41,388 nucleotides of DNA from Marinifilum sp. Its GTDB lineage: Bacteria; UBA9089; CG2-30-40-21. Positions 7,195-20,224 of the stretch are shown one piece after another. Numbering within the stretch: the stretch's first letter is position 1; every line of letters starts with the position of its first letter. The position numbers were made by a program, and so were the translations under genes. The notes below the pieces were generated by a model that did not search any database, was not told the DNA's origin, and was given only the letters and a program-made list of their open reading frames with translations. Where the stretch lies: NCBI GenBank assembly GCA_020717845.1, contig DYDG01000012.1:1-41388 (forward strand), in the 5' to 3' direction.

Positions 7195-7384
7195 ATTTCA
7201 AGTGTTTTTTTTAGAAATATTACTTATGGATAATTACATCAATTTCTTCTTCCCCTATGGAACGCAGATGACACGGATTTTTGCGGATTTTTTGGTGGTG
7301 TTTGAGAATAGCTTAGCTTGTTAGTTGCCGGATAATTTCTGCCACAAAGGCACGAAGACACGAAAGTTCTCTAAGATATATCTT
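7195..7384. other. Intergenic stretch with junk-like repeat fragments and a palindrome
   Basis: There is no gene here. The stretch contains an AACGCAGATGACACGGAT fragment and a CACAAAGGCACGAAGACACG fragment. Similar CACGGAGA-type fragments are seen at about 34333-34370 and 34530-34560. It ends in the perfect 16-bp palindrome CTAAGATATATCTTAG (7371-7386), into whose right edge the insertion sequence relic is inserted. Confidence 0.5.
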
Positions 7385-7412
7385 AGGACTTACGCAAAAA
7401 CAAAAAAAATAG

Positions 7413-7441
7413 TTGACAAAAAAAACGGTAATGTGTATACT
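7413..7441 (+). promoter_or_regulatory. IS-borne consensus promoter directed toward the cas operon
   Basis: TTGACA (7413-7418), a 17-nt spacer and TATACT (7436-7441) make a near-perfect sigma-70 promoter on the plus strand. It originally served the transposase: the predicted start point nearly coincides with that ATG at 7449. With the transposase destroyed, the transcript would run about 500 nt into cas3. Whether it is used for cas expression is inference. Confidence 0.65.
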
Positions 7442-7448
7442 TGCTACT

Positions 7449-7724
7449 ATGAAACTAACAAAGCAAGCTATTACTCGTTTGGACTATTGTCAATATTTGC
7501 TTAGTAGCCAGATTAACTATACTCTGACCAATTTTTGCAGATCACACTGAGGTATTTAGTCATGACAGAATCAACCGATTGGCTGTGCCATTTTGGTATG
7601 GATACGTCTTAAACAAGTGGCCAAAGAAACCAAACGCACAATTTATCAGGTCAAACACAACTTATTGTCAGACTACTTACGTTGCCAACTTAAATCACCT
7701 TCCATCAAGATGGTTTTTGTGTAA
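7449..7724 (+). pseudogene. Transposase remnant (DDE type, IS701/IS4-like), frameshifted and internally deleted
   Basis: The 5' part translates as MKLTKQAITRLDYCQYLLSS followed by QINYTLTNF. The reading then shifts by +1 to continue as FADHTEVFSHDRINRL. Next comes a large deletion. The 3' end reads WIRLKQVAKETKRTIYQVKH and finishes with SPSIKMVFV and a stop. These two ends match the start and end of IS701/IS4-like DDE transposases as I know the family. The catalytic core is absent, so the copy is dead. The family name rests on memory of these termini and could be refined by a search. Confidence 0.75.
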
Positions 7725-7770
7725 GTCTCATTGAACTCAAAACTTACACAAGATGATGGATTGCTTGCTA

Positions 7771-7930
7771 TACCTCGAGCGGTCATAGATTGTGAATTTT
7801 TTCGGTGAGCAATGGGCATTGTTAGCAAGGCGTGAAGGTGAGTAATAGCCTATGCTATTTCGAACCTGAGCAACGCAGCTATCGATGTTCAGAGCCAGCG
7901 AAAAATCACAATTTGTGGCCGCTCGAGGTA
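7771..7930. mobile_element. 160-bp MITE-like element nested in the IS relic
   Basis: The ends are long imperfect inverted repeats: TACCTCGAGCGG(TCATAGATTGTGA...) on the left, and (...TCACAATTTGTGG)CCGCTCGAGGTA on the right, about 30 bp each. The flanks read TATA on both sides (GCTATACC and GGTATATA), consistent with a short AT target duplication. It has no open reading frame of its own. It lies between the dead transposase and cas3, and its right end supplies a GAGG followed seven bases later by an ATG. Confidence 0.7.
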
Positions 7931-7983
7931 TATATATGACGTTTTTGAAAGGTAATGGTCAGACGAGGTTTTGCGTAAGTCCT

Positions 7984-10620
7984 ATGAATAATATTTTCAA
8001 GTATTGGGGTAAAGTAAAACAAGATGAAAAAGACAGATGGAATTGCCATTTGCTACCGTATCACTGTCTTGATGTGGCAGCAGTAGGTGAGGTGTGGTTG
8101 GAACAAGATAAGGCACTACGTGAGCGTATTGCCTGTTCAATTAGAATAGATAAAGATGGCAGGCAACTTGACAATATTATTGGCTTTTTTCTTGCTCTTC
8201 ATGACCTCGGGAAATTTGACATACGGTTTCAGTCCAAGGTAACTGAAGTGAGCAATCTTGTTTGGCATGATCTGAACCAGAACGACTTATTTTTAACCAC
8301 AAGCCATATTACCGAGTATAACCACGGCAAGGCAGGGTACGATATTTTCGTCAAATTCTATACTCAGTTTCTCGACTTAGAATCTCAGGATGAAGATATT
8401 CTTGATAAATGGAAGCCGTGGATCTCAGCGGTTACAGGGCACCATGGAATCATACCCAGTCAGGCGAATTGGCATAAACCCAGCTCTGAGCAAAGCATAA
8501 TCGAGCACGACCATCAGGCACGAATGGAATGGTTCAAGGACTTGAGAATTCTCTTTTGGGGTCATAACGAAAGCATTCCTTTAATCCCTGAACTATCTCA
8601 AGAGAGTATCGCATTTATTGCTGGTTTCTGCTCGGTTGCAGACTGGATAGCCTCTAATGATTTGTTTGTCAGGTGGATTGACGATGAAATTTCATTGGAG
8701 CGTTACTTTGAAGAATCAAAAGAGCATTGCCGAAAAACAGGCATCCTTAAAGAAATCGGGGTGGTTGGGTGTCAGCCTTCACGATATGTGGGTATTGCGT
8801 CTCTTCTCTCAAATAAAGACAAACCCCGGCAGGTTCAGACACTCATTGATGATATGTTGCCTGAAACCGGGCTTTTGATTATCGAAGCTCCCACTGGCTC
8901 AGGCAAAACAGAATCTGCTCTGGCAATTGCATGGAAGTTGATTGATAGCGGTCAGGCGGATTCAATTATATTTGCCTTACCTACTCAGGCAACAGCCGAT
9001 GCAATGCTTGAACGACTACAGAATCTTGCACCTGTTTTATTTGAAGGCGGCGATGCCAATTTAGTACTTGCTCATGGCAAAGCGAAATACAATGAAATCT
9101 TTGCTAATCTTAAGGCGGCAGGCAGGCCTGGTGCTGCACAAAAAAGAGATGAAGGTGCTGTCCAGTGTGCACAGTGGATATCTTCAAGCCGCAAGCGTGT
9201 TTTTCTCGGTCAGATTGGAGTTTGCACTATTGATCAGGTGCTGCTTTCTGTTTTGCCTCTACGCCACAATTTTATCAGAAGTTTTGGTGTGATGAAAAGC
9301 GTTCTGATTATTGACGAAGTGCATGCTTACGACCGCTATATGTATGGTTTACTGGAAGAGGTGCTCAAACGGCAGAAATCAACAGGAGGATCTGCTATAC
9401 TTCTTTCGGCAACGCTCCCGGCTGTCCAAAAGCAGGAATTATTCAAAACATGGCATGAAGATAGTGGTGCAATGATAATTGATAATGCCACATATCCACT
9501 CATAAGCAAAATCTCAGTATCCGGTGAAAGTTCAGCCATTTCTCCTGCAACTGATGAAATGCCGCCGGAGCGTGCAATCCATATTGAGCTTGTTATTTCG
9601 GATAAGATGCAGCCCGATGAATCCATTATTACCAGATTACTCGAGGCTGCCAAAAGCGGGGCACTGGTGGCTGTTGTCTGCAACCTTGTTAAGGATGCCC
9701 AGCAAACAGCAAAAACCGCAAAAAAACTCTCTTCAATCATCTCGAATTCAAGTGTTCAGGTTGATATTTTTCATGCCCGATATCGGTTTAAGGATCGTCA
9801 GAAAAAAGAGAAGATTGCAAAAGAAATGTATGGCAAATCAGCCCCCAGAAACAGCGGTAGAATCCTTGTAGCCACGCAGGTTGTAGAACAAAGCCTTGAT
9901 CTTGATTTCGATTGGCTTATTACTCAACTATGTCCTGTGGATTTACTCTTTCAGCGTATGGGTCGTCTGCACCGTCACTATCGTTTAAGACCCACAGGAT
10001 TTGAAAAGCCGATATGCACAGTGCTTATATCCGAAAAAGATGATTTTGGTACACATGAATATATCTACCAGGATACGCGTGTCTTGTGGCGGACGCGGGA
10101 ATTGCTCAAAAAACAAGGCGATGAAATTCGCTTTCCTGCGGCTTATCGGGAATTAATAGAAGCTGTATATGGAAAATCAACATGGGATGATGATGAACCG
10201 GATTCAGTAATTGGGAAAAGCCTTGCGTTTAAGCAAGAACAAGAACTTCTGTGGTATACGGCTCAACAGCGAGCAACCAATGGAATGAACCCCTTTGCTG
10301 ATACTGATCAAAATGCAGCCAGCCTGACCCGCGGCAAAGAAATGAGTCTAACTGTGGTACCAATACAAGCCAAAGCTGCAAAGAAAACCTTATTGGATGG
10401 CGAATGTATAATTGATGTAAATGAATTCCAGCGGGATGAATTGCTGAATATGAATGCTGTTTCTGTCCCGGCTGGATGGAAATGGCTGCCATCGTTTGAA
10501 GACGGATATATCTACCTTCCCATGGAGAATACTTGCGAAGGTTGGGTTTGGAGGCACGGAAAGTATTCATTAAAATATACAAAAGATTTTGGTTTGGAAC
10601 AATTGGAGGAGGAAGAATGA
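7984..10620 (+). CDS. Cas3 helicase-nuclease, type I-E
   Basis: Cas3 is the effector nuclease recruited by Cascade to unwind and degrade target DNA. It has an N-terminal HD nuclease domain with YHCLDVA (about residue 27), LHDLGKFD (about 72) and TGHHG. A superfamily 2 helicase follows: Walker A EAPTGSGKTES (about 301), DEVH box LIIDEVHAYD (about 443), SATLP (about 475) and QRMGRLHRH (about 655). An accessory C-terminal domain ends the protein. Length from this ATG is 878 aa, normal for type I-E. The frame is open to 7885. An alternative ATG at 7936 has a better ribosome-binding site and would add 16 residues encoded by the IS relic. The stop overlaps the cas8e ATG. Confidence 0.96.
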   Translation: MNNIFKYWGKVKQDEKDRWNCHLLPYHCLDVAAVGEVWLEQDKALRERIACSIRIDKDGRQLDNIIGFFLALHDLGKFDIRFQSKVTEVSNLVWHDLNQNDLFLTTSHITEYNHGKAGYDIFVKFYTQFLDLESQDEDILDKWKPWISAVTGHHGIIPSQANWHKPSSEQSIIEHDHQARMEWFKDLRILFWGHNESIPLIPELSQESIAFIAGFCSVADWIASNDLFVRWIDDEISLERYFEESKEHCRKTGILKEIGVVGCQPSRYVGIASLLSNKDKPRQVQTLIDDMLPETGLLIIEAPTGSGKTESALAIAWKLIDSGQADSIIFALPTQATADAMLERLQNLAPVLFEGGDANLVLAHGKAKYNEIFANLKAAGRPGAAQKRDEGAVQCAQWISSSRKRVFLGQIGVCTIDQVLLSVLPLRHNFIRSFGVMKSVLIIDEVHAYDRYMYGLLEEVLKRQKSTGGSAILLSATLPAVQKQELFKTWHEDSGAMIIDNATYPLISKISVSGESSAISPATDEMPPERAIHIELVISDKMQPDESIITRLLEAAKSGALVAVVCNLVKDAQQTAKTAKKLSSIISNSSVQVDIFHARYRFKDRQKKEKIAKEMYGKSAPRNSGRILVATQVVEQSLDLDFDWLITQLCPVDLLFQRMGRLHRHYRLRPTGFEKPICTVLISEKDDFGTHEYIYQDTRVLWRTRELLKKQGDEIRFPAAYRELIEAVYGKSTWDDDEPDSVIGKSLAFKQEQELLWYTAQQRATNGMNPFADTDQNAASLTRGKEMSLTVVPIQAKAAKKTLLDGECIIDVNEFQRDELLNMNAVSVPAGWKWLPSFEDGYIYLPMENTCEGWVWRHGKYSLKYTKDFGLEQLEEEE

Positions 10621-12170
10621 ATCTATTGAAAGACCCTTGGATTCCGGTAAGAAACGGGGCTGACTTCCAACAGATAACTTATAAAGACTTGCTTTGCTTG
10701 GAACAGCCGATGTGCCGGGTGGCACTGTCTCGGGATGATTTGGAACTGGCCTGCATCCAGATGCTTGCCGCGTTGACACAGGTTATATTCATGCCTGCGG
10801 ACAAAAAGGAATTACGCACAAGAATTCAAACCCCGCTTACAGAACAGGAATATGAGACCAGAGTGAAAGAATATGAGGACTGGTTTGATCTGAATCATCC
10901 GAAGTGGCCGTTTATGCAGGTTCTTGAGCCTGGAACCGATGAAACAACCCCGATACAGAAGCTATTTTTAGGTTTGCCGGCAGGAAATAGTCATGCCTTT
11001 TTCAATGAGAGCAATGAATGTGAGAAGGTTTGTCTGCCATGTGCGGCAATAGGTCTTTTTAATTCTTGCACTCATGCCCCGAATATCTCTGGTAAACATA
11101 AAGGTGGGTTGCGGGGAAACGCACCGATATCCACTATGATTTACGATGGGTCGTTGCGAAAGATGATCTGGATGAATGTGCTATCACAAGAAATGGTTGA
11201 TCGAATAATGTTGGGTAATCGTCAGGAAATCCCTGTTTGGGTTGAAAAGATCAAAGGAGCAAAGAAGCAGGAGGATGGAGAGCAGATTCAGGCGACAAAC
11301 ATTGGCATGGCGCGCGGGCTCTTCTGGACACCAATTCTTGTCCGGCTCCTTTTTCATAACGAACCGATTGTTTGTGATTGTTGTGGATTGACCTCTAATG
11401 TAGGAATTAAAGGGTTTCGGCTTGGCAGTGTTTTTATGTTCATAGTAAAAGGTCTTTGGCCGCATCCGTATAGCCCTCGGCAACTGAACCTGCAAAAAGA
11501 GAATAAAAAGGGAAAAGAAATCCCAGAGGAATCTGTTGTGTCCTTCACAACCACTGAACCGGCATGGACGCAATTTTCAGAATTGCTCTTTCACTCAGAA
11601 AAAACTGATAAAAAGGAAGGATATGTCCCGGCTACTGTTATCTCTCAATATCACGACCTTTTCAGTGATAAAACTATGTATCTCCTTATAGGAGGTTATC
11701 GTAATAAACAAGCCTCGATTCTCCAGCGTCGGCATGAACTTTATTCAATACCTGCAGGTTGGAGTGATGATCTTCGTGACAGGATTATTGAAATTATCGA
11801 TATCGGGTTATCGATGAAAGAAATTTTGGTGAATAAAGTTCTGTATCCGGTAGTTAAGGGTGATGAGAAGAAAGGACTGAAAGGTGTTGGGGTTGCTATA
11901 AATACGAAGGCATCAGTTCTCTACTTTTATCTTACTGAATCACACATCCACAATATGCTTCGAGAAACCAGCCTGCGGGAATTTGCTCAGGCTAAAATTG
12001 TTTTTCTTGAAAACATTTCTCAAATTTGCCTTGATATCTTTGAGCGAGTTACTCAAGCCTACATCCATAAGCCCGAACTTATCGGCACAGTGGCTCTGGG
12101 CCGTGTGAAACTTAGGAGGCTTCTAAAAGAACTCAAAAACAAGCATAGTGTTAAAGGAGGTGTTGTATGA
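10617..12170 (+). CDS. Cas8e (Cse1/CasA), large subunit of Cascade
   Basis: This is the type I-E large subunit that reads the PAM and positions Cas3. It has 517 aa from the ATG at 10617, close to the roughly 500 aa of the family. The diagnostic N-terminus MNLLKDPWIPVR is present, as is the cysteine-bearing region CLPCAAIGLFNSCTHAP...CDCCG, which resembles zinc-ligand pairs. The helical C-terminal bundle ends in LRRLLKELKNKH. The start is set by GGAGGAGGAAG and by the ATGA overlap with the cas3 stop. Its end overlaps cse2 by 4 bp, so cas3-cas8e-cse2 are translationally coupled. Confidence 0.94.
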   Translation: MNLLKDPWIPVRNGADFQQITYKDLLCLEQPMCRVALSRDDLELACIQMLAALTQVIFMPADKKELRTRIQTPLTEQEYETRVKEYEDWFDLNHPKWPFMQVLEPGTDETTPIQKLFLGLPAGNSHAFFNESNECEKVCLPCAAIGLFNSCTHAPNISGKHKGGLRGNAPISTMIYDGSLRKMIWMNVLSQEMVDRIMLGNRQEIPVWVEKIKGAKKQEDGEQIQATNIGMARGLFWTPILVRLLFHNEPIVCDCCGLTSNVGIKGFRLGSVFMFIVKGLWPHPYSPRQLNLQKENKKGKEIPEESVVSFTTTEPAWTQFSELLFHSEKTDKKEGYVPATVISQYHDLFSDKTMYLLIGGYRNKQASILQRRHELYSIPAGWSDDLRDRIIEIIDIGLSMKEILVNKVLYPVVKGDEKKGLKGVGVAINTKASVLYFYLTESHIHNMLRETSLREFAQAKIVFLENISQICLDIFERVTQAYIHKPELIGTVALGRVKLRRLLKELKNKHSVKGGVV

Positions 12171-12667
12171 CACAAAATGAAAAAGGAGGCGGCTTGCCGA
12201 ATTTTGCAGAAGTCAGGAAGCGATATGAAAAATTTTCTCCGGGGAACAAGGCACAGATTGGCAAGAGAATAGGAACGCCGGAAGACCTGGCGATGATCCC
12301 GGCATTCTATAAGCTCTTTCCTGGTATTCAGCCGTCTGAATGGCACTACCGAGTAGCTTTTCTTGTTCCGTTTATTCGCTATTCAGATGTCGGGCCTACT
12401 TTGGGTGAATACATAGGCGAGCAAGAGCGATTGAAGAAGGTTGGCGGTCTTGAAAAAAGGGTCTTACAGGTTGCTCGGGCGAGCTCACCGCAGGATATGG
12501 TTTATCTTCGCAGGCTTTTAATGCGATTTGATGAACCAGCGGTTAATTGGGTTAAATCAGGGTTGGCAAAACTCTTTTCTGTAAATGAAGAGAAAAATGC
12601 TGAGGGGAAAAAGAGGTTTGTTGAACAATACTTTATATCCCGTTACAAGGAAAAGGAGGAAAAATAA
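12167..12667 (+). CDS. Cse2 (CasB/Cas11e), small subunit of Cascade
   Basis: This all-helical small subunit (166 aa; the usual range is 150-200) forms the belly dimer of Cascade and stabilises the displaced DNA strand. The sequence is basic and helix-rich (AEVRKRYEKFSPGNKAQIGKR...) and ends in a lysine/glutamate-rich tail. A conserved pattern in this family, a segment like FLVPFIRYSD followed by LRRLLMRFDE and an aromatic-KxxLAKLF region, is present. It overlaps cas8e by 4 bp and its stop overlaps the cas7e ATG by one base. Assignment rests on length, composition and fixed operon position together. Confidence 0.9.
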   Translation: MTQNEKGGGLPNFAEVRKRYEKFSPGNKAQIGKRIGTPEDLAMIPAFYKLFPGIQPSEWHYRVAFLVPFIRYSDVGPTLGEYIGEQERLKKVGGLEKRVLQVARASSPQDMVYLRRLLMRFDEPAVNWVKSGLAKLFSVNEEKNAEGKKRFVEQYFISRYKEKEEK

Positions 12668-13779
12668 TGTCTGAACAGAAAAATTTCGTTAATTTTCATG
12701 TGCTTATTTCGCATAGTCCGTCATGCCTTAATCGGGATGACCAGAATATGCAGAAACGAGCAGTCTTCGGGGGAGTTGAAAGGATACGGATATCAAGCCA
12801 GAGTTTGAAGAGAGCGATGCGAACCTCTTCATACTATGCAAAGGAATTTGGGTTGCCATCAATAAGATCAAACAAACTTGAAAAATTGGTCGCGAAATTC
12901 ACCGATGCCTTGAAAAATGAATATTCGGTTGACCTTGTCAAGAAAGCTGTCGAATGGATCTCTGGAAAAAGTGGATTTGAGGCAGGTGGCGAAGCAGATT
13001 CTGTCGCTCCGTGGGCGATTGCTGAAGTCGCCATGTTTTGCGATAGAATTAAAGAGGCTGAAACTGCCGGTATAGACCAGGACAAACTTAAGAAACAGAT
13101 TGAAAAAGATGCCTCGCCATTTCGGAAGAACTTTGAGCAAGCCATAGATATAGCACTCTCTGGTCGAATGGCAACATTTGGCCTTATGAATGCGATTCCA
13201 GTTGACGGCTCGCTCGCTGTTGCTCATGCTATCACTACTCATGCCGCTCAGGCTGATACCGACTGGTTCACCGCGGTTGACGACCTGGTGCAGGAATCAG
13301 GCGAAGTAGGTGCCGGTCATCTTGATACGCAGGAATTCTCCTCTGGCGTATTTTATCGTTATGCCAGCCTTAACATTGCTCAGTTGCAAAAAAATCTTGG
13401 CGGAGCTGATCGTAAAAGGGCACTTGAAATTGCAAAACATGTATTTCACATGCTTTGCACCGTAGTGCCTTCAGCAAAACAACAGTCATTTGCTGCACAT
13501 AATCTTGCTGATTTTGCTATCGTTACCCTTGATGACCAGCCCATATCCCTGGCTAATGCCTTCGAACAACCAGTAGAGAAGGAGAAAAACGGCGGGTATC
13601 TGAAGCCATCTGTCTCTGCACTCGCCAATTACTTCAGCCGTATGAAGAAAGTGTACGGTCTTGATGGATCGGCATCTGGAACACCAGCAGATATTGGTGT
13701 CACTATCCCCAGTGATTTGACTATGCTGACTTCGTTTCCAGCGATTGAAACATGGATTGCCAATGATGGCAGCAGATAA
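12667..13779 (+). CDS. Cas7e (Cse4/CasC), Cascade backbone subunit
   Basis: This RRM-fold protein (370 aa) polymerises as six copies along the crRNA. The family signatures are evident: VNFHVLISHSPSCLNRDD near the N-terminus, RAVFGGVERIRISSQSLKRA, ALSGRMATFGLMNAIPVDG, and the late VVPSAKQQSFAAHNLADF segment. Length and motifs match E. coli CasC. A GGAAAAGGAGG ribosome-binding site precedes the ATG. Twelve bases separate it from cas5e. Confidence 0.95.
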   Translation: MSEQKNFVNFHVLISHSPSCLNRDDQNMQKRAVFGGVERIRISSQSLKRAMRTSSYYAKEFGLPSIRSNKLEKLVAKFTDALKNEYSVDLVKKAVEWISGKSGFEAGGEADSVAPWAIAEVAMFCDRIKEAETAGIDQDKLKKQIEKDASPFRKNFEQAIDIALSGRMATFGLMNAIPVDGSLAVAHAITTHAAQADTDWFTAVDDLVQESGEVGAGHLDTQEFSSGVFYRYASLNIAQLQKNLGGADRKRALEIAKHVFHMLCTVVPSAKQQSFAAHNLADFAIVTLDDQPISLANAFEQPVEKEKNGGYLKPSVSALANYFSRMKKVYGLDGSASGTPADIGVTIPSDLTMLTSFPAIETWIANDGSR

Positions 13780-13791
13780 GGAGGAAACTAT

Positions 13792-14481
13792 ATGCCTCAA
13801 TTTCTTATTATAAAACTTGACGGTGTAATGCAAGGATGGGGTGGGCATACTTACGAAGACTGGCGGCCTACTGAGCTTTTTCCTACACGTAGCGGATTAT
13901 TGGGTCTACTTGGAGCTTGCCTTGGTATTGACAGGCAGGATATAGAAAGGCTTAATGCTCTTGCTGTAAGCGTCTGTTTTACTATTCGGGCAGATTGCCG
14001 GGCGGATGATACCGGCAAACCCATTGCATCCTTAAGGCTCTGTGATTATCACACTATTGAGCATGCTCGAAAGGTTGATGGTTCAGAAAACAAGAATCCA
14101 GTTCAGTCTTACCGCTGGTATCTTTTCGACACACTGTTTACAGTAGCGATAGAAGCCACCATAGATGCGAAGGTAACATTGGACGAGATTGCAGAAGCCT
14201 TGAAAAAACCGGTCTATACGCCGTTTCTTGGCAGACGAAGTTGTCCTATATCTTGTCCATTATTGGAACCGGGTTTATCTGAACCATTTGAAGCGGTAAA
14301 TGCCAAAGAAGCGATTGCTCGAAGCGGTTCAGGGGGTTCAGTTATTTATACCGAGTCGCAGGATTGGATGTCTGAGAGCCGTCTGCGTATGCGAGATGTT
14401 CCTATGTATGGACGAATTAGAACATTTACTACGCGAGAGGTTTATATCCATTCCGAAAAGGAGGTGGACAATGTATCTTAG
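13792..14481 (+). CDS. Cas5e (CasD), crRNA 5'-handle binding subunit
   Basis: This RAMP-fold protein (229 aa) caps the 5' handle of the crRNA in Cascade. The N-terminus (FLIIKLDGVMQGWGGHTYED) and the following RPTELFPTRSGLLGLLGACLGI are the standard Cas5 family beginning, with the glycine-rich helix that follows the first strand. The C-terminal YTPFLGRRSCP and MRDVPMYGR segments also match Cas5e. The start follows AGGAGG. Its last 11 bases overlap cas6e. Confidence 0.94.
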   Translation: MPQFLIIKLDGVMQGWGGHTYEDWRPTELFPTRSGLLGLLGACLGIDRQDIERLNALAVSVCFTIRADCRADDTGKPIASLRLCDYHTIEHARKVDGSENKNPVQSYRWYLFDTLFTVAIEATIDAKVTLDEIAEALKKPVYTPFLGRRSCPISCPLLEPGLSEPFEAVNAKEAIARSGSGGSVIYTESQDWMSESRLRMRDVPMYGRIRTFTTREVYIHSEKEVDNVS

Positions 14482-15127
14482 TAAAATTGTGCTTTCCTGG
14501 CCCGCTTGCCGAAATCCGTATCAATGGCATCGGACAATATGGCAGTTGTTTCCCAATCATCAGGAAGCAGAACGGAGCTTTCTCTTTTCCTGTATTGACC
14601 ACCGGCCCGGCAAAAATATTTCCGCATTGCTTTTTTCGATAGAAAAACCGGAGAGAATACAATCAAAGGAGGTAACGCTATCTGAAGAACCGAAATCACT
14701 GGCTGGTTTGTCATTCAAGCCGGGACAGATGTTAGGCTTCCGCTTAACGGCTAATCCGACAAAAGTCATCACCGAGCAGACAGATGAAATACACATGTCC
14801 CCCACAGGCGCGGGGATGAATCAACGCAAGATTCGTGTTCCGTTGATTAAAAGAGAACAACAAGAGGATTGGCTGAAGCGGAAACTTGATGGACTCGCAG
14901 TTGTTGAAAATGTAATGCCGCAAAATGAGCCTCCGCTTTACTTCAACCGAAAAAATAGAGGCGGTAAGATTGTCCCTGTTACCTTTGAAGGAATTCTCAG
15001 AGTAGTTAATCCTGAAAAGTTTAAAGAACAAATCTACGAAAAATATAACGAAAAAGGTGAATATATTGCTGGCATTGGTCCTGCTAAAGCATTTGGCTGT
15101 GGGCTGATGATGGTGAAAAGGATATGA
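14471..15127 (+). CDS. Cas6e (Cse3/CasE), CRISPR RNA endoribonuclease
   Basis: Cas6e cleaves pre-crRNA at the 3' base of the repeat hairpin and stays bound to it in Cascade. Length is 218 aa. The N-terminus MYLSKIVLSWPACRNPYQWH matches the family. Catalytic histidine H20 follows Tyr-Gln-Trp, aligning with Tyr23/His26 of the E. coli enzyme from memory. The C-terminal glycine-rich loop GIGPAKAFGCGLMMV is intact. The start at 14471 has AAAAGGAGG upstream. Unusually, 14795-14823 is a near-copy of this locus's CRISPR repeat, encoding HMSPTGAGMNQ. This replaces, with a few added residues, the loop that in E. coli lies just before RCRVPLIK. Confidence 0.94.
   Translation: MYLSKIVLSWPACRNPYQWHRTIWQLFPNHQEAERSFLFSCIDHRPGKNISALLFSIEKPERIQSKEVTLSEEPKSLAGLSFKPGQMLGFRLTANPTKVITEQTDEIHMSPTGAGMNQRKIRVPLIKREQQEDWLKRKLDGLAVVENVMPQNEPPLYFNRKNRGGKIVPVTFEGILRVVNPEKFKEQIYEKYNEKGEYIAGIGPAKAFGCGLMMVKRI
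14795..14823 (+). repeat. CRISPR-repeat-like sequence embedded in cas6e
   Basis: Aligned with the 29-nt array repeat on the same strand, this stretch matches at 25 of 29 positions. Within the core GTCCCCCACAGGCGCGGGGA, only two bases differ (T to C at the third position and in the loop-closing pair). The hairpin arms CCCC and GGGG and the AGGC loop are kept, and the 3' handle reads ATGAATCA instead of ATGAACCG. One A-C mismatch weakens the stem. Confidence 0.9.
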
Positions 15128-15155
15128 CTATGGTGTTACGCAAAGGAGGCAGCTA

Positions 15156-15987
15156 ATGGAAACTAAACTGGCAGTATTTAAGGGCAAGGAAATACGGCGG
15201 ACACTTCATAATAACGAGTGGTGGTTTTCTGTTGTAGATGTATGTGAGGTGCTCACTGAAAGTCCTGATCCAGGAGCATATTGGCGAAAAATGAAACAAA
15301 GACTCAAAGAAGAGGGAAGTGAACCCGTGACATTTTGTCACGGGTTGAAATTGATTGCCCCCGATGGAAAGATGAGAGAGACTGATTGTGCCAATACCGA
15401 AGGGATTTTCCGAATCATCCAGTCTGTTCCCTCTCCCAAAGCCGAACCTTTCAAACGCTGGCTGGCAAAGGTTGGATATGAGAGGGTCCAGGAGATAGAA
15501 GACCCAGAACTTGCCACAAAGAGGACAAGGGCTTTATACAAGGCAAAGGGATACTCTGATGACTGGATTGAGAAGAGGATACGCGGTATTGCCATTAGAG
15601 AGGAGCTAACGGATGAATGGAAAAAGCGAGAGATAACACAGCAGAAGGAGTATGAGATACTTACTGCTGAAATAGCCAGAGCCGCTTTTGGAATAACACC
15701 GAGTCAGCATAAGAGCATAAAGGGGCTGAATCGGGAGAATCTGAGAGACCATATGACCGATCTTGAATTAATATTCTCAATGCTCGGTGAAGCTGCTACT
15801 ACAGAGATAACCAGGGTCGATGATGCCAAAGGATTTCACGAAAACAAGACAGCAGCCCGAAAAGGTGGAGAGGTTGCAGGAAAAGCACGAAAGGATCTTG
15901 AAGAAAAAACCGGCAAACGGGTCATTTCTAAAGAAAACTACCTGATAATCTCTCAGAGTCAGAAGAAATTGGAGAAAAGGAGGGAAA

Positions 15988-15995
<8 letters not shown>
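15156..15995 (+). CDS. Bro-N domain (phage antirepressor/DinD-like) protein inside the cas operon
   Basis: This 279-aa protein has an N-terminal Bro-N DNA-binding domain (about residues 5-110; KEIRRTLHNNEWWFSVVDVCEVL, EGIFRIIQSVPSPKAEPFKRWLAKVG). A conserved C-terminal region follows (GYSDDWIEKRIRGIAIREELT, HKSIKGLNRENLRDHMTDLE, TARKGGEVAGKARKDLE). This architecture is widespread in bacteria as a BRO-family or DNA-damage-inducible D-like protein; its molecular role is poorly defined. It follows cas6e by 28 bp with its own AAAGGAGG, and its last 8 bases overlap the cas1 start. It is therefore part of the operon rather than a neighbour. It is not a recognised type I-E component. A transcriptional regulator or damage-response link is inference. 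Confidence 0.88.
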
Positions 15996-17221
<1,226 letters not shown>

Positions 17222-17225
17222 AAAT

Positions 17226-17756
17226 ATGGTTAATATTGAAAGCATCCTATTGCCCAGCAGCCGATACCGTGCATTCCTTGATATTGAAACTACTGGTTTG
17301 AGCCCAACGAGGGGGGATTTGACCGTAATTGGAATATGTTTGGAGAATGATGCTCATCAAGAGTTTATTCAATTGCTTGAAAACGATATATCCTCGGCAA
17401 TGCTGTTTAAGATAATTGAAAATGTGGATATACTTTATACCTATAACGGCACAAGATTTGATTTACCCTATATCAAGGCAAAATTAGGCGTAGATTTGAC
17501 TGAACATTGCCTTCATATAGATTTGATGTATGAATGCTGGCGAAAAAGGCTATATGGCGGACTTAAAAGGGTGGAAAAACAACTTGGGATTAAAAGAAAA
17601 TTGATAGAAATAGATGGAAGAATGGCAGTTAAATTATGGTATGAGTATAAATTTTATGGAAATAAACAGGCTCTGGTTACCTTGCTGGAATATAATAAGG
17701 AAGATGTGCTGAATCTAATGTTGATACGAGAAAAATTATGTGTGGATAGGAGATAG
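17226..17756 (+). CDS. Stand-alone DEDDy 3'-5' exonuclease (YprB/RNase_H_2-like) next to cas2
   Basis: This 176-aa ribonuclease-H-fold exonuclease domain has all four acidic residues: FLDIETTGL (Asp19, Glu21), TYNGTRFDLPYI (Asp79) and EYNKEDVLNL (Tyr156, Asp160). The Y-x3-D form makes it DEDDy, distinct from the DEDDh DnaQ domains. It resembles the single-domain YprB-like nucleases (COG3359 as I recall). The start at 17226 follows GAGG at good spacing and lies 4 bp after the cas2 stop. An in-frame ATG at 17211 lacks a site. It is the last gene before the leader. By analogy with Cas2-DnaQ fusions and Cas4, it may trim prespacer ends, which is inference. Confidence 0.85.
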   Translation: MVNIESILLPSSRYRAFLDIETTGLSPTRGDLTVIGICLENDAHQEFIQLLENDISSAMLFKIIENVDILYTYNGTRFDLPYIKAKLGVDLTEHCLHIDLMYECWRKRLYGGLKRVEKQLGIKRKLIEIDGRMAVKLWYEYKFYGNKQALVTLLEYNKEDVLNLMLIREKLCVDRR

Positions 17757-17816: not shown

Positions 17817-20224
17817 ATGTTCCCCACAGGCGTGGGGATGAACCTCGCCCTAATCGTCGTGCCAGTAAAATCCATAAATGTTCCCCACAGGCGTGGGGAT
17901 GAACCGCATACCCCGATACCGCAGTGCTCGGACGTGTGATGTTCCCCACAGGCGTGGGGATGAACCGATTACATCCCGCTGCTCACGTAGGGCGATAGCA
18001 TGTTCCCCACAGGCGTGGGGATGAACCGATATTTTTGTAGGGAAAAGCTGGAAAGCGTGCATGTTCCCCACAGGCGTGGGGATGAACCGCTAATGTTAGT
18101 TGATGTGATTGCTGAGGTCAAATGTTCCCCACAGGCGTGGGGATGAACCGCCCACCAGTGATGTCATTGTTAGCTGCTTCCGATGTTCCCCACAGGCGTG
18201 GGGATGAACCGTTACCGCAAGAAACACGGCAACGATTTCTTGAATGTTCCCCACAGGCGTGGGGATGAACCGTATATTTTCCCCAATAGCGGCATACTCG
18301 GCAGATGTTCCCCACAGGCGTGGGGATGAACCGACGCGGGGGGATGTCGGCGTGTGTCCTTGCCCATGTTCCCCACAGGCGTGGGGATGAACCGGTCACG
18401 GAGCAGGGACGACGGCACAGCTCCCTATGTTCCCCACAGGCGTGGGGATGAACCGCAGGATATTCTGTGATGCCTAACGATACTGAGATGTTCCCCACAG
18501 GCGTGGGGATGAACCGTACTTTCCGTTAACACTGTTAATCCGTTAATTATGTTCCCCACAGGCGTGGGGATGAACCGGGCTAAAACGGATGAGATGGGAT
18601 AAGTTTTGCATGTTCCCCACAGGCGTGGGGATGAACCGCTATACGCTATTGGTCGAACAGTAGCAGGCAAATGTTCCCCACAGGCGTGGGGATGAACCGC
18701 TACGGATTTTAGCATAACTGCGGATTATGCTATGTTCCCCACAGGCGTGGGGATGAACCGGCTGTCTGGGATAGCCAGCATTGGGCGATAATATGTTCCC
18801 CACAGGCGTGGGGATGAACCGTATATCGGTAAGAGCAGGGGATACCACCTCTGATGTTCCCCACAGGCGTGGGGATGAACCGTTGATGAAAGGCTTGCGG
18901 CTCAAAGGGTTACGATGTTCCCCACAGGCGTGGGGATGAACCGATATACAGGCAGATAAGGAGGTTGACACAGCCATGTTCCCCACAGGCGTGGGGATGA
19001 ACCGCTGGATATGTTATTAAAGCTGGTCATATTGTTATGTTCCCCACAGGCGTGGGGATGAACCGGGTGATGGTATTGCACGGATAAGAGAACTTGTATG
19101 TTCCCCACAGGCGTGGGGATGAACCGTTTATTGCCATGACAGGTGCTAAAAACTTTATATGTTCCCCACAGGCGTGGGGATGAACCGCTGGAAAGGACTA
19201 ATTGAGGATACGAGTGCAGATGTTCCCCACAGGCGTGGGGATGAACCGGATTATGGTTATTGCGGTAAATGTGGACAGCAATGTTCCCCACAGGCGTGGG
19301 GATGAACCGTACTCTGCCGATGTCATTCCGGTGGAACTAACATGTTCCCCACAGGCGTGGGGATGAACCGTTGAATTACTCGGTCACTCGTTCGATTGTC
19401 TGATGTTCCCCACAGGCGTGGGGATGAACCGCACTCTGAGGAGAGAGACCAAACATTGACACGATGTTCCCCACAGGCGTGGGGATGAACCGGCAGAGGG
19501 TGTTATTCTCAGGGGTTTTTCGCAATGTTCCCCACAGGCGTGGGGATGAACCGTGATAATGGACGCAAAAATAAACGCTGGGGCAATGTTCCCCACAGGC
19601 GTGGGGATGAACCGGTCAACCATCCTTTTTTTGTGCCTAAATTCTGATGTTCCCCACAGGCGTGGGGATGAACCGACACGCTGTGCCGTCGTCCCCTACT
19701 CCGTGCCATGTTCCCCACAGGCGTGGGGATGAACCGGGATTCTGTCCGACTCCAACGTGCTGTCTATCATGTTCCCCACAGGCGTGGGGATGAACCGAAG
19801 GAGGAAGATCATGGAAAACTGGGCACAAAATGTTCCCCACAGGCGTGGGGATGAACCGATATTGCTTTTAGGGTTACTCTTATATGGTATATGTTCCCCA
19901 CAGGCGTGGGGATGAACCGCAGTTTGAGAGCAAGCACAAAGAGGTTCTAAAATGTTCCCCACAGGCGTGGGGATGAACCGGCAGGTAGGATCAAGGGGTG
20001 TCCCGCTCGTCCATGTTCCCCACAGGCGTGGGGATGAACCGCATCATAGACGACTATGTTGCATTGGTCGAGAATGTTCCCCACAGGCGTGGGGATGAAC
20101 CGAGGGAGACGGATACCCCAGCAAGATAGAGACTATGTTCCCCACAGGCGTGGGGATGAACCGTTCTCTGAGGTATCCCCGCTACCCTCTGGCTTATGTT
20201 CCCCACAGGCGTGGGGATGAACCC
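17817..20224 (+). CRISPR. Type I-E CRISPR array, 40 repeats and 39 spacers
   Basis: The 29-nt repeat begins ATGTTCCCCACAGGCGTGGG and ends with the 8-nt handle ATGAACCG. It folds into a 7-bp hairpin (TCCCCAC/GTGGGGA, loop AGGC). Starts fall exactly at 17817+61n for n=0-39, so every spacer is 32 nt. The first 28 nt are identical in all 40 copies by inspection, with no decay at the distal end. The 29th base is G after 38 repeats, T after the leader-proximal repeat and C after the last. Transcription is left to right from the cas side. I recognise no spacer target. Apparent minus-strand reading frames across the array are artefacts of the repeat. Confidence 0.98.

Follow-up and report, generated by a model that had tools for sequence, protein, structure and literature searches.

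What does a Bro-N gene do inside a type I-E CRISPR operon? The window, a stretch of 41,388 nucleotides that was analysed as a whole, carries such a gene between cas6e and cas1e. The initial annotation of this DNA had placed it at that junction with its own ribosome-binding site and a close tie to cas1, and had proposed that it might control cas expression, link adaptation to DNA damage, or be a phage-derived element, either domesticated or carried as cargo of an anti-CRISPR kind. The features of the locus are as follows.

7981-10620, + strand: cas3 (start re-assigned; the open reading frame opens at 7885)
10614-12170, + strand: cse1/casA (profile matches)
12167-12667, + strand: cse2/cas11e (weak match, PADLOC Cas11e, E 3e-6)
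12667-13779, + strand: cas7e (profile matches)
13792-14481, + strand: cas5e (profile matches)
14471-15127, + strand: cas6e (profile matches)
15143-15150, + strand: Shine-Dalgarno sequence of the Bro gene, AAAGGAGG, 6 bp 5' of the ATG (sequence)
15156-15995, + strand: PDC-S13-type Bro-N gene, 279 amino acids, ATG to TGA (open reading frame list, translation and PADLOC profile match)
15189-15470, + strand: Bro-N domain, residues 12-105, winged-helix DNA-binding fold (Pfam PF02498; fold matches)
15267-15365, + strand: swapped allele segment, residues 38-70, which holds the putative recognition helix 39-53
15435-15992, + strand: C-terminal helical domain, residues 94-279, DdrC-like (AlphaFold model of the domain alone)
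15988-15995, + strand: 8 bases shared by the end of the Bro gene and the beginning of cas1e (sequence)
15988-16911, + strand: cas1e (profile matches)
16892-17221, + strand: cas2e (profile matches)
17817-20224, strand not given: CRISPR array, 40 repeats, identical core ATGTTCCCCACAGGCGTGGGGATGAACC, period 61

The cas genes around the Bro gene are a genuine, complete-looking type I-E set, with cse2 matching weakly. Given this set and the 24-base repeat core, which is common to all 40 copies of the array and identical throughout, the locus shows no sign of decay. The Bro gene starts 28 bp after the end of cas6e (15127), and the Shine-Dalgarno sequence of cas1 (GGAGGG) sits within its 3' end, ahead of the 8-base overlap; the position, the separate Shine-Dalgarno sequence and the tight coupling to cas1 were therefore described correctly by the initial annotation. 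No promoter or terminator of its own exceeded shuffled sequence around the gene. Its GC content (0.448) is similar to that of the neighbour genes, so composition gives no support for a foreign origin. In the searched genomes of the window's own genus, no other relative of the window cas1 was found.

Two further elements flank the operon. A gene for an RNase_H_2/DEDD-like exonuclease (17211-17753; PF13482, E 3.9e-39) overlaps the end of cas2 and has the lowest GC content of the operon (0.354); a search of the first 84 Bro loci and of the 40 cas loci read around cas1 revealed no relative of it, and its product may trim prespacers like Cas2-DEDDh or be additional cargo. Upstream of the cas genes, at 7381-7987, lies an insertion-element or MITE-like remnant with 19-nt arms (TCTTAGGACTTACGCAAAA at 7381, its complement at 7969) and a 32-nt inverted repeat at 7769/7901. 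Since the remnant ends at the likely true cas3 start (ATG at about 7981), it fills the upstream region of the operon. By eye, a promoter-like TTGACA-N17-TATACT can be seen inside it at 7412-7441, about 540 bp 5' of the re-assigned cas3 start.

The Bro protein gives a full-length match to the PADLOC profile PDC-S13 (E 1.5e-124; residues 2-276 against profile positions 2-280 of 286), in addition to Pfam Bro-N (residues 12-105, E 7.4e-16, 59.0 bits with a curated cut-off of 25.6) and a PHROG of unassigned function; no curated NCBIfam name was found for it. According to PMC12988326, PDCs are mostly unvalidated and were proposed from an analysis of defence operons termed 'guilt by embedding' (a 2024 preprint by Payne et al., cited there). 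In the literature searched, we found no paper on PDC-S13 or Bro-N in CRISPR operons, and no validation of PDC-S13 was apparent.

A genome scan returned at least 529 confirmed relatives, the best 80 of which span many bacterial phyla and some archaea. The family is strongly conserved at the protein level, with many invariant residues across phyla, and its tree indicates wide horizontal spread; genomes hold up to 6 copies, and pseudogenes or remnants are present (loci L159 and L191). The window's own genome has a second cas1-cas2 pair, of another subtype, on contig C111 (L249, 858-4260); after it come a four-helix-bundle gene and a further Bro copy about 60% identical, so the same cargo set recurs in that genome.

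We then asked which genes surround the family. Among the 80 loci most similar to the window Bro (best 80 of at least 529), the CRISPR neighbours were 19 type I-C, 10 type I-E, 1 type I-G and 1 type V-A/Cas12a, and 8 neighbours were of restriction type (4 RM-I, 2 RM-III, 1 IIG and 1 Drm-like helicase). The type V-A locus, from Candidatus Termititenax (L076, 5968-10858), has Bro between Cas12a and cas4-cas1. A sample of 395 Thermodesulfobacteriota genomes, a single phylum that may not be that of the window, held 55 Bro copies in 53 loci. By tblastn adjacency (same strand, within 1.6 kb), 26 of the 53 lie beside defence genes: 6 type I-E (one locus, duplicated in the adjacency table, was counted once), 11 type I-C, 5 RM type I, 2 RM type III and 2 IIG or Drm-like. 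HMM scans added 4 loci, namely two split IIG systems, one Shango pair and one HEC-06-like neighbour, which brings the defence-adjacent loci to at least 30 of 53, a lower bound because the reference protein set was limited. About 18 of the 53 had no defence neighbour by the tblastn references, 4 of which were those later assigned by HMM; it should be noted that many source genomes are metagenome-assembled, and that contig ends hide neighbours. At L233 (5158-10240), the gene between SngA and SngB of a Shango system is a distant Bro with 48% identity.

For the type I-E slot, about 0.0015 Bro copies would be expected by chance in the 395 genomes and 6 were seen; in type I-C, Bro is often placed beside cas4/cas1. 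The neighbourhood survey that had been suggested to look for cas linkage thus shows a family recurring beside cas genes in many genomes: 17 of the 53 loci lie in cas operons, in many taxa, rather than being scattered away from cas genes or confined to one strain.

Viewed from Cas1, the picture is that of a slot. The 395 genomes contained 36 cas1e loci, whose neighbours were read around cas1; 20 form a close clade (79% or more Cas1 identity with the window Cas1) and 16 are more distant. The cas6-cas1 junction is filled in 12 of the 20 close loci vs none of the 16 distant ones (Fisher P 1.7e-4). Bro is intact in 5 and a remnant in 1 of the close loci and intact in none of the distant ones, which rules it out as a core type I-E cas gene. 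The other cargo consists of Fic, RhuM-Fic, a YhcG nuclease, a 23S_rRNA_IVP four-helix protein, an HI1420-like antidote and DUF433-DUF5615. The junction is therefore, in this clade, a cargo slot with rotating occupants. Spacing between Bro and cas1e is tight, at -8 bp in the window and about 0-16 bp in L161, L164, L168 and L192. At one type I-E locus (L045/L191), an intact Bro lies 5' of cas3 and a broken Bro accompanies Fic in the cas6-cas1 slot, which is apparently in turnover.

Within the close clade, cas1-cas2 are about 80-88% identical and the effector genes often only 25-45%, and Bro-cas1-cas2 together are 70-88% identical between loci whose effectors are at 25-45%. This places Bro, cas1 and cas2 at a module junction, and in some cases the three move together. 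The cas-linked members are nevertheless spread over the Bro tree (11 changes for the cas link, and 9 for type I-E alone on a second tree); a single origin of the link is not supported, and Bro has probably entered the slot repeatedly.

The protein itself varies in an unusual way. Residues 38-70 fall into discrete types, whose borders vary with the clustering threshold, such as DAGAYWRKLKQRL..VVTFCHGLKL, NPRDYWYKMKIR..ELSTICRQLKL, DPRQYIKKMRQRD..YWGTICTPLE, RPRKYWNDLKKKL..ELSEKIGQLKL and GYIKDMRRRDKELSKGWGQIATPL. Across 105 proteins, identity in segment 38-69 is uncorrelated with that of the rest of the protein (r 0.05), as against r 0.7-0.9 for most other windows of the protein and 0.8-0.9 for those from residue 97 to 224. 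For example, L009 and L017 share 38% identity within the segment and 92% over the rest of the protein. When the types are mapped on a tree built without the segment, they require 37 changes, close to the 40.5 obtained with shuffled labels, and pairs of the same type share 0.565 of their silent codons in the segment vs about 0.39 elsewhere (up to 0.47 at the N-terminus), which indicates DNA exchange and not convergence. Alleles of residues 38-70 have thus been exchanged between otherwise unrelated backbones. No association of allele type with host system was visible. In the AlphaFold model, the segment includes helix 39-53, which is second in the winged-helix motif and likely the recognition helix.

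The full-length AlphaFold model (pLDDT 83) combines a Bro-N winged helix with a helical C-terminal domain, the orientation between the two being uncertain (pTM 0.58). Foldseek returned DdrC of Deinococcus radiodurans as the best PDB match over the full length (E 1.4e-6), and the superposition (VIA Z 13.7 over 213 residues) has a large rmsd because the domains are placed differently. Modelled alone (pLDDT 88.7), the C-terminal domain matches DdrC with Z 13.8 over 154 residues (rmsd 5.1), the next unrelated structure reaching 6.8. For the N-terminal domain, the matches are Bro-N/APSES DNA-binding domains (4ye7, Z 9.1), including the PCG2-DNA complex 4ux5 (Z 7.0). A profile search of PDB sequences returned neither DdrC nor any other relevant relative, so that the predicted fold is of DdrC type without detectable sequence similarity. 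Both this fold and the exchange of residues 38-70 seem new. The proposed DNA-damage link, in the form of a DinD-like protein, holds at the level of the DdrC fold but not for E. coli DinD itself, which is not detectably of the same family by sequence (BLASTP E 0.92; hhalign probability 1.1%); DinD orthology was rejected, since pairwise and profile comparisons both fail.

Taken together, we lean towards the view that the Bro gene is an interchangeable accessory defence gene of PDC-S13 type, whose product binds cut or foreign DNA and which borrows the expression of nuclease operons. Such a gene would move between operons of DNA-cutting immune systems and be expressed with whichever operon it enters; in the window it occupies the cas6e-cas1e cargo slot. 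Its Bro-N/KilA-N-like winged helix would bind DNA and its C-terminal helical bundle would pair two subunits, as in DdrC. The presence of a DdrC-like protein beside Cas3, Cas12a and restriction enzymes suggests that the substrate is cut or nicked DNA, and the protein most likely binds the DNA ends or nicked foreign DNA that these partner nucleases generate. By holding or compacting this DNA, it might keep a cut invader from recovering or let the cell survive collateral cuts; harm to the invader, protection of the host from collateral cuts and hand-over of DNA to Cas1-Cas2 would all be compatible with the sequence. Recognition would be tuned by intragenic recombination swapping residues 38-70: the exchanged helix suggests that the recognised target is under changing selection, and an exchanged recognition segment suggests sequence- or partner-specific binding, a poor fit to a general break sensor.

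Other readings have to be weighed against this one. The gene could be addiction or guard cargo, which stabilises the operon or fires on loss or inhibition of the host system and does not act directly on invader DNA. Toxin-antitoxin genes and PrrC in restriction loci are cargo of this kind, Bro is co-directional with the operon, and other genes found in this slot resemble toxin-antitoxin genes (Fic, RhuM, DUF433-DUF5615, HI1420-type antidote). The predicted DNA-binding, DdrC-like fold with no recognisable toxin active site argues against this, as does the lack of any cognate partner gene travelling with Bro, and we regard it as rather unlikely. The tight spacing and overlap with cas1e, the frequent cas4/cas1 neighbourhood in type I-C and the joint conservation of Bro-cas1-cas2 next to divergent effectors would also suit a dedicated cofactor of adaptation or cas expression, binding prespacers or the leader/promoter and regulating cas1-cas2. 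However, the dedicated type I-E role once suggested is not supported, because the same family occurs in I-C, I-G, V-A, restriction-modification and Shango operons, and Bro is missing from most of the close cas1e loci; moreover, allele type does not visibly track the host system, and the short gap to cas6e leaves little room for an operator there. We consider such a cofactor unlikely.

The high copy number, the pseudogenes and the wide horizontal spread are also what would be seen with a neutral or selfish mobile gene that tolerates operon junctions and gains expression without helping the host system. Its strong conservation, a preference for defence operons far above chance and the absence of a mobility domain speak against this, which makes it decidedly unlikely. 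As for a phage-derived antirepressor or anti-CRISPR carried as cargo, Bro-N is indeed a phage regulator domain, and four distant relatives occur in a collection of 50,697 phage records. Yet Bro is not a recent phage insert: the family is nearly absent from viral collections, where 2.9 million viral contigs yielded 4 relatives (63-65% for the best) vs hundreds in bacterial genomes, and the locus keeps its complete cas genes and an array with identical repeat cores; this origin is highly improbable.

A bolder form of the accessory-defence reading is possible but rather doubtful: DNA-cutting immune systems (type I and V CRISPR, restriction-modification, Shango) may commonly share, as an accessory, a DdrC-like protein that binds breaks and carries recognition-helix cassettes open to exchange. 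Recombination of a segment of about 33 residues would rewrite the specificity of this protein, as in restriction specificity subunits, and beside cas1 it may aid the handling of cut DNA for interference or spacer uptake. If so, many unrelated nuclease-based immune systems would share one add-on protein, which would indicate a common weak spot, the fate of cut DNA, and offer a handle on it. The cas6-cas1 slot is a hunting ground for more unknown defence genes, and the exchanged segment offers a direct experimental handle.

Among known systems, the Bro gene shares with PDC-S13 a full-length HMM match and the habit of a single gene inside defence operons. CreTA and PrrC-type genes sit embedded in CRISPR or restriction operons as well; they share the slot logic of an additional gene within an immune operon, whereas Bro has neither an RNA toxin-antitoxin pair nor an anticodon nuclease. 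Phage Bro-N/KilA-N antirepressors (the PHROG anti-repressor Ant families) have the N-terminal domain in common and differ in the C-terminal domain, in genomic setting and in being phage genes, the Bro family being near-absent from phages. E. coli DinD is of similar length and has a short collinear C-terminal similarity, although sequence does not support membership of one family. DdrC (7udi, 8u0g, 7qvb), which attaches to DNA breaks and, as a dimer, bridges or compacts DNA, shares the winged helix and C-terminal helical bundle over most of the length; the Bro protein, without detectable sequence similarity to it, differs in its defence-operon setting and in its additional swapped segment.
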